From Planctomycetaceae bacterium (GTDB lineage: Bacteria > Planctomycetota > Planctomycetia > Planctomycetales > Planctomycetaceae): a stretch of 64,000 nucleotides of DNA. This document shows positions 48,167-57,987 of the stretch, piece by piece (position 1 is the stretch's first letter; the number at the start of each line of letters is the position of its first letter). A program made the position numbers and the translations under genes. The notes beneath the pieces were generated by a model. The model was not told where the DNA came from. It searched no databases and worked only from the letters and a program-made list of their open reading frames with translations. Where the stretch lies: assembly GCA_014762625.1 (NCBI GenBank), contig JABURQ010000044.1, positions 1 to 64,000 on the forward strand. Reading direction: 5' to 3'.

Positions 48167-48661
48167 AACAACAGACTCCTTAAGTCTTTCAATGTCTATC
48201 TCCGGCCATTCCCGGACAATCGGGAACGAGCCTGTCCACCTAGGTAGAGACGTGTCGAGTCGGATTTATTCCCCGGATTTTGAAATTTCTGCAACTTATT
48301 TCCAGACTGTTTTTTAGGGGGTGAACGGCAAAAATTGCAAAATGTTCCGAATGAAATGGAATTTTTGATTCTTCGCTTGACACATCACGGGACTTTCCAT
48401 AAAAGCCTCCCACCTATCCGAAGTCCCGTTCCGGGGCTGAGACCCGAATTGATCGGCCAATCACGAAACTGACGTTCCTCGTCACTCTGATTCACCGCCA
48501 ATTCAACCCATCCAGAGGACCATCCGGTCCACACAAGATTACCCACACGATTACGAACACCGATTCACGAATTCAATAATCCTTCCTCACCGAATGACCT
48601 GAGTTCCGAACCGGACCTTGAAATCACCTGTATTCATTCAATTGCGAAGACAGGAACATCG
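48167..48661. promoter_or_regulatory. long divergent leader region with a promoter candidate
   Basis: 495 bp between the small lipoprotein and the giant surface-protein gene. A perfect TTGACA at 48377-48382 with CATAAA or TAAAAG about 16-17 bp downstream could drive the rightward gene with a 5' leader of about 260 nt. The long leader leaves room for regulation. No ORF was found. Confidence 0.5.
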
Positions 48662-51600
48662 ATGAAAACTTTGCGACCATTAGCCGCCTTTGTCATTACT
48701 GCCGTCAGCATCCTGACGGGACCGAACGTCGTTCGGGCTGCTGAGCCGATCAGCATGTCCGAAACTCAATCCGACGCCCAGGTCTCCGGAACGCTTCCAA
48801 ACTCGCGAGCGGGTTTGATGACGTTGGGATCTCTGAGCGGTCTCAACGAAGTCACCATCGGGGCTCTTCCCTCGGTCGGGTTCTCCGGAAACTTCGGAGA
48901 CAACTACTGGCGGCAGGACTTCTACACAGTAGACGCCTTCCTCCCTTGGAACCTAAATCCGGGAACGGATTACTTCTTCGGAGAAATCGGCCTCTCCATT
49001 ACCGAACAAGGTCAGGCCGCCGGGAACCTCGGTGTGGGATACGCCTACTACCTCGCAAATCTCGACCGACTAATGCGAATGTCGAGTTACTTAACCATCG
49101 ACGGTCAATACGAAAAGACCCGTGCCGCCTGGTCGTTACGGGGGGAAAGTCTCGGTAAGTATGTCGATGTGCTCTCCGGAATCCAGATCGTCACCACCGA
49201 CTCCGACGATATTGTCGGCACAGGATTTACGGGAGTGGAAGGTTTCTCCGGAAACAAATATCTGCTTCAGGGAATTCAGGTCCGGGAAACCGCGTTCCAC
49301 AACGCCGACATTGAAATCGGCGGACCGCTCCCCTACCTGGGTGACTACGGGATCAGCGCGTATGCCAAAGGGTACTACATGTTGAATACCCAGAACGATC
49401 TCGACTCACTCGGATTCGGATTCCGCAGCGAATGGTCGATCACGGAAGATGTCACCTTCAATGTCAACTACACCAAAGACGACATCTTCGATCACAGCTC
49501 CTGGTTCAATATTACCATGGCGACTCCGGACGGGGCACCGCGAAACTTCCTGCGCCCGATCAGCACTCGTGAACGATTCTCGAAACGTGTTCATCGCACG
49601 GGAAGAATTCCGACCAAAGTTACAGAGACTTATTCTTCTATTGCAGCTACCAATGCTAAAGGTGGAGGAGCACTTGATTTCTTATGGGTTGATCCTAATC
49701 GGGCAACCGATGGGAACGGAACATTTGAGAATCCGTATAATAATCTGGAATCTGCCCGATTAGCAAATTCTGCAGCAACAGACGTGATCCTGGTCACTCC
49801 CGACACCACAAATCTTGATCCGGGAGAGAATCTTGTCCTAACGGACACCTTGCAATTATTCGATAACCAATACCTACTTTCGACCAGTGTCGATCACACA
49901 ATCCCCACTGGTAACGTGGGCGATCTATTCTTTGCAGGAACTGGTGGAAATGGGGCTCTCATCAGCAACGAATCTACCATACCTGATTCCGTCGTAACGC
50001 TCGCGAATTGGAACACGGTTTCTGGATTCATCATTGACGGGCGAGATGAAAACGGTGACATCATTCATAACGGTATCACCGGTTCGGGAATCAGCGGATT
50101 CGACATCAATCGAAATACGATCCAGAACGTTGTCAATGGAACGTTGATCACCCACATGGGTTCGGATATCGGCTATTTCAACGACAACATCGTCACTGGT
50201 GGCGGAAATAATTCAACTCGCGGATTTTCCATCACTCACACGGGTGGAACACTCGCTCTCTCAGCGCAACGAAATAATATTTCAGGCTTCCTGGGTGAAG
50301 ACGTCGATGCCGACGGGATGCTCGATCCGGGCGAAGACTTGAACATGAACGGTCAACTTGACTTTGGTATTGGGCTAGAGATCATCGCCAACGGTGGCAC
50401 GATCAATGCTTGGGATCCGAACGTTTTCGGGCAACCAGTCCCACTACCTCCAGAGATGTTGGATGAAAAAGAGTTTGGAATTCTGGACAACGTTTCGAAC
50501 AGTAACGGTACAGGAATGTTGATTCAGGCCAATAATGGAGCCACTGTCAATGCCGACATCCAAGGCAATCAGTTTTCAAATAACGTGAATCCCGAGACTG
50601 GAGCTCGTCTCGAATCCATCGGAGGTACACTCAATGTATTGGCCTTCAACGAAAACCTGGTCACAAACAATATCGGCAACGGGCTTATCTTCCGAGCTGA
50701 CGACAATGGCGGTGGACCGGGGACCATCAATATCTTTGACATGAACAACAACACCATTACCGGCAATGGTTTCAACACCATGGAAAATCCCGAAGGAACC
50801 AATAACAACGGAATATTCATGGTTGCCGATAATGCAAGTGTCATTAACGCACACACGGGTCTGATGGGTCTCGGATTCGACGGAATGGGACTTACTGACA
50901 ACAACATTAGTAATAATGCGGGTGGCGGTTTACTGGCTCTCGTCGATAACGGCAGTATTTTGAGATTGGATTTCGAAGAGGGTGAAACAGGTAATGTCGT
51001 TAACAACAACGGCAGAGACGGCCTCTTCTTCCAGATCGAAAACGGTTCACTTGTTTCTGCAAACATCTTCAACGGCGAATTTAGCAATAATAGCGGCTTC
51101 GGTATTGGTGCCGAATTGTTGAGTGGCAGTGCATTGACCGCTAACATCGGGTCGTACGGTGCCGGAACAGGAAATACGGTCTTTAACAACCAACGGGCGG
51201 GTATCGGGTTCGCAGCCTTCGAAACCAGCACGATCTTCAACACCAACATCATCAACAATGTCGTTCAATCCACTAACGCCAGCCAAATCCCGCTGGATAG
51301 GTTCGGAGGTGATGGAGTTGCTATTCTGGTCGATGAATCGACTCTCGTAGATACGGTGATTGATTTGAACATCATCGGGGAACTTGATACTCCGGCGCTT
51401 GGAAACATTGGTAACGGTATTCGCATCGAAACAACGGGCTCCTCGGCCAGCGGTATTCAAAATCTCGTGATTGGTAATCTGGACGGAGACAACAATAACG
51501 GAAACCAGATTGGCAACAACGCAGGCGACGGTATTCACATCGAACGTAGCGTCGCGTCTTTGATTCCAGCATCGCTACAAATTGTGGATAATAAAATCTG

Positions 51601-53233
51601 GAACAACAACTCAGATGGTATCGAAATCATTTCTCGCGGATCGGACAACGCGGTCTCGTTCTTCAACATAGAAGACAATCAAATTTTTACCAACGCATCC
51701 AACGGGATCAATCTACAGCTTCAATCCGATGCCCAAATGAATGTTGATATCATCAACAATGTGATCGACGGCAATAGCTCCAACGGTATCCTGACGAGCG
51801 AAAACGTCAACGCGGCAGAGGATATGCGATTCATATCGGGAACTTGGGATTCCAACCTGATCATTAACAACGGTGGAAACGGGATTAATAATAATGCTCT
51901 TCTGAATAACCTCGTGGTCTCAGCAAATCTCATAGAACAGAACGGTTTGAACGGCATTCTTCATAACAGTGCTGGCACAGCTTTTTACGTCGGCAATCGT
52001 GTTTTGAGCAACGGGGTCAATAGCGTGACCGGTGCAAACCACGGTATCGATATTCAAGGGCAACAGTTCAAACAAGTCGGTCTCCAGAACAATTTGGTGG
52101 ACAACAACGACGGGGACGGGCTTGAAGTCCGATTCAACGATGCTGGCATCGACGACGGGTTCTCCCCTGGATTCTTCCTGTTCTCTCTCAACGACGTCTT
52201 CTCAAACAACGGCGAACGCGGCATTGATATTCTGAACCAGGGGGAGGCAGATTCCTTTATCCAATTCGATTCTGCAAGGGTCGTCAACAATCAACTTGAA
52301 GGTGTTTATGTAGTAAATACTGCTTCCACTACGCAGGGACAGAATGCTGCTGCGGGAGCGGCTCTGGACTCTAACGGTAGCATAGACGCAGATGTTCAAC
52401 TTAACTTCGCCTTCACAAATGGTACCGTTGAAGGTAACGGAGTCGGAAGTGGGTTCAACTCAACCGGACTCTTGATTCGAGTCGGAACTTCGGAGATTGC
52501 GGCTCAAAATTTTGCAAGCAATACGTTCAGCGGTGTCGTTGCCAATATCGATAATAACATCATGCAAGGAAACCAAGGGCACGATTTCTACGTTGATGCA
52601 TTTGTCTCAACGGTTAATCCACCAACGAACCGAGCGAACGTTGACCCCTTGGCACGATTGGACCTGAATTTCACCAACAATACTGGTGACTCGATCAATG
52701 TTGATGCCTCGAACTTCGCCGTCTTCTATGACAATGCGGATGCTGGCAAATCGCCTTGGGATATTACTCGCCGCCGAAACGCGACGCGACTGTCCGATGA
52801 CGACTTCATCTGGTTTGGAGCGGTTAACGATACAATGGCCGACTTGGATGACTTCGATGTCGACGACCAGTTCATGCCTGGCTTCTTCAACGGGGCCGAT
52901 GACAGTTTCAATGGACGTGACCTAACATTTACCAGTGGTCCGAATGCAGGTGCAACCCGAACTATTACTGATTCAACAGCAGCTGGAAACTTCACCTTCG
53001 GCGTTCCCTGGTTAGCAGTTGCGGGTAATAACAATCAATTCTTCGTCGATTTCACAGGAACGTTTTACCCCGGATTGGGAGAGAGCACATTCCGTTTCTT
53101 TGACGATGGAAACTCGAATAACTTCACCTCCGGACTTGGTGGCTTTAACACCTTCGGTGATATCCGACCAGGAGCTGCAAATCGTCAAGGTGAAGAAAAT
53201 TCCGAATGGGACGAGGTGTTCGCTCCTTTCTAA
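48662..53233 (+). CDS. inverse-autotransporter-like outer membrane protein with beta-helix passenger
   Basis: 1523 residues with a signal peptide ending VVRAAEP. Residues about 35-315 are beta-rich and contain a pattern of the inverse-autotransporter barrel: GYAYYLANLDRLMRM, PYLGDYGISAYAKGYYML, FGFRSEWSITEDVTFNVNYT. Residues about 340-1460 are a right-handed parallel beta-helix with many asparagine-rich rungs (NNTITGNGF, NNISNNAGGG, NNVIDGNSSNGI). The passage WVDPNRATDGNGTFENPYNN begins it. Residues 547-567 contain two EF-hand-like loops (DVDADGMLDPGED, LNMNGQLD). The likely arrangement is a barrel in the outer membrane with a surface-exposed beta-helix stalk. Codon usage turns AT/AAT-rich at about 49620, the domain junction. 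Confidence 0.75.
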   Translation: MKTLRPLAAFVITAVSILTGPNVVRAAEPISMSETQSDAQVSGTLPNSRAGLMTLGSLSGLNEVTIGALPSVGFSGNFGDNYWRQDFYTVDAFLPWNLNPGTDYFFGEIGLSITEQGQAAGNLGVGYAYYLANLDRLMRMSSYLTIDGQYEKTRAAWSLRGESLGKYVDVLSGIQIVTTDSDDIVGTGFTGVEGFSGNKYLLQGIQVRETAFHNADIEIGGPLPYLGDYGISAYAKGYYMLNTQNDLDSLGFGFRSEWSITEDVTFNVNYTKDDIFDHSSWFNITMATPDGAPRNFLRPISTRERFSKRVHRTGRIPTKVTETYSSIAATNAKGGGALDFLWVDPNRATDGNGTFENPYNNLESARLANSAATDVILVTPDTTNLDPGENLVLTDTLQLFDNQYLLSTSVDHTIPTGNVGDLFFAGTGGNGALISNESTIPDSVVTLANWNTVSGFIIDGRDENGDIIHNGITGSGISGFDINRNTIQNVVNGTLITHMGSDIGYFNDNIVTGGGNNSTRGFSITHTGGTLALSAQRNNISGFLGEDVDADGMLDPGEDLNMNGQLDFGIGLEIIANGGTINAWDPNVFGQPVPLPPEMLDEKEFGILDNVSNSNGTGMLIQANNGATVNADIQGNQFSNNVNPETGARLESIGGTLNVLAFNENLVTNNIGNGLIFRADDNGGGPGTINIFDMNNNTITGNGFNTMENPEGTNNNGIFMVADNASVINAHTGLMGLGFDGMGLTDNNISNNAGGGLLALVDNGSILRLDFEEGETGNVVNNNGRDGLFFQIENGSLVSANIFNGEFSNNSGFGIGAELLSGSALTANIGSYGAGTGNTVFNNQRAGIGFAAFETSTIFNTNIINNVVQSTNASQIPLDRFGGDGVAILVDESTLVDTVIDLNIIGELDTPALGNIGNGIRIETTGSSASGIQNLVIGNLDGDNNNGNQIGNNAGDGIHIERSVASLIPASLQIVDNKIWNNNSDGIEIISRGSDNAVSFFNIEDNQIFTNASNGINLQLQSDAQMNVDIINNVIDGNSSNGILTSENVNAAEDMRFISGTWDSNLIINNGGNGINNNALLNNLVVSANLIEQNGLNGILHNSAGTAFYVGNRVLSNGVNSVTGANHGIDIQGQQFKQVGLQNNLVDNNDGDGLEVRFNDAGIDDGFSPGFFLFSLNDVFSNNGERGIDILNQGEADSFIQFDSARVVNNQLEGVYVVNTASTTQGQNAAAGAALDSNGSIDADVQLNFAFTNGTVEGNGVGSGFNSTGLLIRVGTSEIAAQNFASNTFSGVVANIDNNIMQGNQGHDFYVDAFVSTVNPPTNRANVDPLARLDLNFTNNTGDSINVDASNFAVFYDNADAGKSPWDITRRRNATRLSDDDFIWFGAVNDTMADLDDFDVDDQFMPGFFNGADDSFNGRDLTFTSGPNAGATRTITDSTAAGNFTFGVPWLAVAGNNNQFFVDFTGTFYPGLGESTFRFFDDGNSNNFTSGLGGFNTFGDIRPGAANRQGEENSEWDEVFAPF

Positions 53234-53265
53234 ACTTCACTTAATGACTTGATGAACACTCCACA

Positions 53266-53303
53266 CTCCCTCGGTTGTTATCACAACCGGGGGAGTTTTT
53301 TTA
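53266..53303 (+). terminator. intrinsic terminator of the beta-helix gene
   Basis: CTCCCTCGGTTGT (53266-53278) pairs with ACAACCGGGGGAG (53283-53295), with one G-U pair, around TATC, and is followed by seven T. It lies 32 bp after the stop codon. Confidence 0.9.
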
Positions 53304-57108: not shown

Positions 57109-57987
57109 CTAGTCGTCGTCGAGAAATTCCGATTCCTCGTGCATATCGAAACGTTTGGCGACTTCGGGATCGGTCGTGACTAATAAAACCTTCCCATCCC
57201 GAATCCCTCTACCGAGATCAACGAATACCCCTGAATCCTTCATGTCGGATAAGAGAGCGTCGTCTGATCCTGTCGCTTGAATGAACGATTCCAGCGACTC
57301 CACTTCCGCGATTGAATCGAGCGAGAGCGAATCGGGAACCGGCCAAAACCGGAGATACCGTCGCGGAGTCTCGTTCACACCCAGCCAAAGCTCGTCATAT
57401 TTGGATCTCACATAGGGATTCAGAACATCCGCATAACCTCGAGAGAGAGGAACTAACTTGATCAGTTCCTGTACATCGGCCAGATCTTTCATCCGATCCG
57501 CCCCCGACATCCCGGACGCCAGTTTGAGTTCAATCAGTGTCTTCAGATTGACGTAAGAGATGCCGTCTTCAACTTCGGTAACTTCCTGTGGAGCGGGAAA
57601 ACTGATGGGTTTCTCTTTTCCGTCACCTGGAAACGAACCACTCGTCAGGAATACAATGCGGACTCCCGATTGCGTATCGCGTAAATTTTTGCTGCGTTCG
57701 AAGGGAGGGGTGTAACCGAGGCCAGTCAGCTTTTCGTGAATCGTTTTCAAGTCTTCTTTATTGACGAGAATATCCACATCTTCGGTAAATCGGCGAAACC
57801 CATGCTTCGCGAGCGCCATCCCTCCGACGATAGAATAGGGAATCCCTAATTCAGACAAGCGCCCGGCAATGCGACGTAAGGTCTGATGCGTTTCGCTCGT
57901 CTCTTCAAAAAAACGATCCCCTTCACTCATGGCCCACCTCGGATCCTGATTGAGTCGCGATTCGTAGTTGATAACGACATCAGACAT
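57109..57987 (-). CDS. nucleotidyltransferase-like protein
   Basis: 292 residues. The NTase-fold start is clear: IPYSIVGGMALAKHGFRRFTEDVDILVNK, with a GG-type motif and the metal-binding D-x-D (EDVDI). This suggests the MNT/AbiEii type superfamily (also proteins called nucleotidyltransferase-domain or DUF6036). After it come helices and an acidic tail FLDDD. I see no HEPN or AbiEi-type partner beside it. It lies between PSD1 and DUF1501 in the same direction, with short gaps (57 and 16 bp), so it is probably co-transcribed. Confidence 0.75.
   Translation of the reverse strand: MSDVVINYESRLNQDPRWAMSEGDRFFEETSETHQTLRRIAGRLSELGIPYSIVGGMALAKHGFRRFTEDVDILVNKEDLKTIHEKLTGLGYTPPFERSKNLRDTQSGVRIVFLTSGSFPGDGKEKPISFPAPQEVTEVEDGISYVNLKTLIELKLASGMSGADRMKDLADVQELIKLVPLSRGYADVLNPYVRSKYDELWLGVNETPRRYLRFWPVPDSLSLDSIAEVESLESFIQATGSDDALLSDMKDSGVFVDLGRGIRDGKVLLVTTDPEVAKRFDMHEESEFLDDD

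Follow-up and report, generated by a model that had tools for sequence, protein, structure and literature searches.

Can a planctomycete protein whose exported part is one long beta-helix be an inverse autotransporter? This question is raised by a gene for a 1523-aa inverse-autotransporter-like protein (48662..53233, + strand, an open reading frame with its translation) in the 64,000-nucleotide stretch of Planctomycetaceae DNA analysed here, hereafter the window. Passengers of inverse autotransporters (type Ve: intimin, invasin, YeeJ, FdeC; Pfam IAT_beta PF11924, TC 1.B.54) are typically, though not obligatorily, Ig-like or lectin-like (PMC6555100), and have been described as strings of independent Ig-like domains (PMC8151025). 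The phyla listed for the family in 2010 (PMC3008723) and 2016 (PMC4827864) do not include Planctomycetes, and our search of papers, as distinct from database annotation, found neither a beta-helical type Ve passenger nor a type Ve protein in planctomycetes. The initial annotation had proposed exactly this combination, an IAT barrel joined to a parallel beta-helix lacking Ig-like domains, and the computational tests reported here support it. They add two points to it, a family-wide architecture with multiple paralogues and an apparent swap of the passenger. By its barrel, domain order and linker motif the protein is an inverse autotransporter; by its passenger it is not an adhesin of the intimin/invasin type.

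The gene, its leader and its flanks

The gene stands by itself, its neighbours being a PSD1/DUF1501 gene pair and a convergent sulfatase gene. A promoter-like TTGACA-N16-CATAAA element lies upstream on the + strand (48377..48405); it is a consensus match only, is kept in two congeners and is the sole match of that type in the window. A near-invariant leader (48623..48661, + strand; ATCACCTGTATTCATTCAATTGCGAAGACAGGAACATCG) with a Shine-Dalgarno-like AGGA abuts the ATG start codon and may contain a translational control element. These 39 nucleotides are the same in three species despite diverged flanks. An Rfam search upstream of the gene gave chance matches only. An intrinsic terminator with a 14-bp stem and a T run (53265..53303, + strand) closes the gene. 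Elsewhere in the window, an AbiEii-like nucleotidyltransferase gene (57109-57987) is flanked by DUF1501 and PSD1 genes.

The initial annotation had linked its reading to use of a signal peptide, and by inspection of the sequence a Sec-type signal peptide is present at residues 1-26 (48662..48739, + strand), reading MKTLRP, hydrophobic LAAFVITAVSILTG, then VRA, with the predicted cut before AEP. In the two congeners the signal peptide reads MKTLRPIAALLISAVTLLTG...VWS, with the cut before Q.

The N-terminus is predicted to be an invasin/intimin-type barrel

Searched alone, the window protein gives no Pfam IAT_beta match, a sub-threshold Beta_helix match in Pfam and nothing in NCBIfam or the PDB, and its own genome holds no IAT_beta above the cut-off. 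It is placed in the family through its relatives and through a structure predicted from the alignment of these. When relatives were sought with the N-terminal 343 residues, 31 of the 42 aligned sequences matched IAT_beta (best 1.5e-14). L045, the first member, exceeds the curated cut-off of IAT_beta, and the window barrel matches L045 at 1.4e-34. Some family members also match NCBIfam models (intimin, SinH, YchO and others). With the family profile, invasin 4E1T was the only significant solved chain in the PDB (3.3e-9), and profile comparison with the Escherichia coli K-12 inverse autotransporters YeeJ and YchO gave E-values of 5e-7 and 1e-6, respectively.

The loci taken for structure prediction were the window and L073-L105. 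An AlphaFold model of residues 40-490, built on an alignment of 29 sequences, reached a pLDDT of 86.6 and places the barrel strands between residues 71 and 287 (48872..49522, + strand). The count is twelve once two strands split by short gaps are joined, and the model suggests a long outward hairpin. In a Foldseek search, invasin and intimin barrels took ranks 1-3 (7.5e-11 to 2.0e-10, target TM 0.73), and the next barrel followed five orders behind, at 1e-5. A barrel of the invasin/intimin kind had been postulated for residues 35-315. The prediction agrees on its nature but makes it narrower. The core reading thus passed the computational checks that the initial annotation had proposed, and neither of the outcomes it had named as refuting, a non-barrel N-terminus or a missing signal peptide, was seen. 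The order of signal peptide, barrel, linker and C-terminal passenger is that of type Ve. The C-terminal barrel of type Va is absent, as the barrel is N-terminal and no PF03797 match was obtained.

The segment behind the barrel (residues 288-337; 49523..49672, + strand) carries the conserved motif RERFSKRVHRTGRI at 303-316 and is expected to form the passage back out through the barrel. Read from the alignment columns, the family motif is R.R[LM]..PV.RN.R[VI], with a core R that 38 of 42 rows share. K-12 YeeJ has LVDRNNNIVLEYRK / RSLAGSRYDLVDRNNNIVLEYRK at the equivalent place. Some relatives carry the variant VERNNRLNVYRRE, and shorter planctomycete IATs VRDIDIVLN.

The passenger is predicted to be one long beta-helix

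Residues ~340-1350 are modelled as a right-handed parallel beta-helix. Between residues 340 and 1460, Asn makes up 15.2% and Lys 0.4%. The ladder motif [IVLF]xxNx[IVLF]xxN occurs 10 times, compared to 1.9 times in shuffled sequences, and none of 1000 shuffles reached 10. In the passenger model (residues 330-1523), the beta-helix is confident from about residue 430 to 1350; the barrel-containing model covers the passenger start, residues 339-488. Confidence is low beyond about residue 1352. The Asn-rich helix that had been assigned to residues 340-1460 is therefore retained over most of its length, but not in its last part, where the final ~170 residues are predicted with low confidence. Among the 32 passengers scanned against Pfam, 20 matched Beta_helix; neither these nor the window protein showed an Ig-like domain, and no LysM was seen.

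Conservation is highest over the passenger's first ~160 residues, those nearest the barrel. This membrane-proximal cap (residues 338-500; 49673..50161, + strand), confidently modelled, has 0.80-1.42 bits per position, compared to ~0.35-0.6 in most of the distal helix, values that are approximate since the alignment is one of repeats. Distal to it, in the main helix (residues 501-1350; 50162..52711, + strand; Asn ladder period ~28.5), which is delimited by ladder, model and PDB matches, mainly Gly and Asn are kept. A conserved proximal segment followed by a variable distal part is the pattern of a folding nucleus near the membrane with an exposed rod, not that of an enzyme. According to a review, inverse autotransporters have no known autochaperone (PMC8151025), and we therefore regard the cap as a candidate folding nucleus and no more.

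The best PDB matches of the helix model are right-handed beta-helices, namely AlgG, AlgE4, PL6 alginate lyases and the adhesin PfbA. With carbohydrate-active enzymes at the top of this list, a weak resemblance of the cap region of the family profile to the start of a beta-xylosidase, and sulfatase genes adjoining, the barrel could be thought to display a polysaccharide lyase, an epimerase or another enzyme of this class. We consider this very unlikely, as the matches are at the level of the fold only (8-14% identity) and none of the 32 passengers matched a carbohydrate-enzyme Pfam family at 0.001. Nor do these passengers share a conserved acidic, Lys, Arg or His set resembling a lyase site; positions conserved in at least 70% of them are chiefly Gly, Asn, Pro and aliphatic residues. 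The low Lys content points in the same direction. A rod that most likely acts as a surface adhesin or cell-contact fibre is the reading we prefer. Polysaccharide binding and a link to budding or attachment, as suggested by the initial annotation, would be further putative roles.

The helix is interrupted by a double EF-hand-like insert (DxDxDG / DxNxNG; residues 545-569; 50294..50368, + strand), which appears as a low-confidence loop in the model. Its sequences, DVDADGMLDPGED at 547 and DLNMNGQLDFG at 559, are as the initial annotation had described them for residues 547-567. Inserts of the GEDxDxDGxL type are present in 28 of 74 relatives, in up to 16 copies. The C-terminal region (residues 1351-1523; 52712..53230, + strand), delimited by the passenger model and the alignment, lacks confident structure and contains GLGESTFR at residues 1471-1478, a motif that 21 of 74 relatives carry 44-76 residues before their C-terminus. 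Beside this GxGxSTFR type, a second strongly conserved tail type, FINFGITQ...NIRAAADPLFPNIGFAPFLP, occurs at the C-termini of L078-L096 (e.g. L079:8698-14724). In alignment A5, three passengers contain a nidogen-like domain and one has a leishmanolysin-like peptidase match.

The architecture recurs in one planctomycete family

With the N-terminal 343 residues as query, relatives were found in 59 of 99 genomes including the window's own (58 of 98 when that one is left out), and many genomes had more than one. A genome-contig scan with the single window protein returned no matches; one with an 11-row subset of the 42-row alignment did. In a sample of 294 genomes from across the phylum, 29 matched profile A1, nine of them only around the cap region and with weak E-values. 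IAT_beta matched 18 genomes, of which 16 belong to the window's family. The architecture is nearly confined to one planctomycete family, usually with multiple paralogues, and the titles of named relatives are mostly Planctomycetaceae. In the barrel tree, the paralogues of one genome spread over different deep clades. By eye, remote and short members have beta-helix-like passengers too, and some relatives have open frames of >4000 aa.

The passenger seems to have been replaced behind a constant barrel

In two congeners (L033, L034), the upstream genes match those of the window at 90% and 78-80%, the leader is kept and the barrel is 74-76% identical, which identifies the locus as orthologous. 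At residue ~321 (window 49622 onward), DNA identity drops from about 0.75 to 0.55, and beyond residue 500 no BLAST match to the congeners was obtained at 1e-3. The reverse search, congener passenger against window, gave a single 48-residue stretch (4e-4). Past residue 500, passengers of other genera match the window at 31-42% identity. Neither congener genome contains the window's distal helix, and the window genome lacks theirs; a reciprocal exchange was sought and not found. The 3' flank differs as well, the genes downstream in the window (sulfatase, DUF1501, PSD1) sitting elsewhere, on another contig, in a congener. From these comparisons, a constant barrel with an unrelated passenger in the congeners seems to reflect passenger replacement with a break at residue ~321.

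Since the genome is a 208-contig assembly and the window's 3' flank lies on another congener contig with no adjoining IAT gene (no IAT 3' end adjoins the sulfatase in G002), the break might also be an assembly join that made the window gene a chimera of two genes. This is unlikely, given that the reading frame is intact over the break and the gene ends in the family C-terminal motif and a terminator. In addition, L035, from another genus, is a colinear full-length homologue encoded as a single gene (34.5% over residues 70-1516, E 5e-179). Passenger replacement thus remains our preferred reading. The window's sulfatase has over 110 matches in each congener genome (G001, G002). In congener G002, L134:6237-7736 contains barrel and passenger fragments broken by stop codons, i.e. 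a decaying second IAT gene.

Discussion

We consider it probable that the protein is a type Ve variant that is exported N-to-C and forms a surface rod with exchangeable passengers. What supports this comes from comparison and prediction: the kinship of the barrel, the motif in the linker, the beta-helical fold, the way conservation is distributed and the congeners' different passenger. In the proposed pathway, Sec would export the chain, the N-terminal 12-stranded barrel would insert into the outer membrane and the linker would loop outward again through it. The conserved cap would emerge first and start the beta-helix, which would then grow one coil at a time towards the C-terminus and pull the remaining chain out. 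The result would be a stiff, cell-anchored rod with the C-terminus as its tip; with about 32 coils, each of ~28.5 residues and rising 0.48 nm, its length would be roughly 15 nm. Behind the constant barrel, passengers would be exchangeable. A variable distal part that keeps only structural Gly and Asn is as expected for an exposed rod.

A 12-stranded barrel by itself ends in the periplasm, and the barrel could accordingly be an anchor only, its beta-helix staying periplasmic. We regard this as most unlikely: the linker motif typical after intimin-type barrels is kept, the periplasm would have to house the ~15 nm rod, or a far longer one in relatives with frames of >4000 aa, and the variable, swapped distal parts suit an exposed position. 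The surface location and the N-to-C folding direction, both of which we infer, thus remain parts of the preferred pathway.

With known type Ve proteins, the window protein shares the family and fold of the N-terminal 12-stranded barrel, the linker motif and a C-terminal passenger of very variable length; it departs from the usual member in that this passenger is one long beta-helix. Like type Va (Ag43), it has a beta-helical passenger and a conserved barrel-adjacent segment that could start folding. Unlike in type Va, however, the domain order is reversed, the barrel is N-terminal and of the IAT kind rather than PF03797, and the helix would fold from N to C. PfbA-type surface adhesins share the right-handed beta-helix and, in the case of PfbA, are attached to the cell wall in a Gram-positive (PMC3718772); PfbA has no barrel.

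A more far-reaching proposal, which we hold to be about evenly balanced, is that planctomycetes possess a type Ve branch whose single beta-helix folds N to C from an autochaperone-like cap, as a mirror of type Va, and whose whole passengers are swapped behind a constant barrel. With a beta-helix behind an IAT barrel, the type Va arrangement would have its natural counterpart in reverse. Whether a conserved segment next to the barrel initiates vectorial folding and drives export could then be tested in both directions. Surface secretion is little known in planctomycetes, and the family would give them a widespread group of candidate surface rods, each genome having many paralogues.
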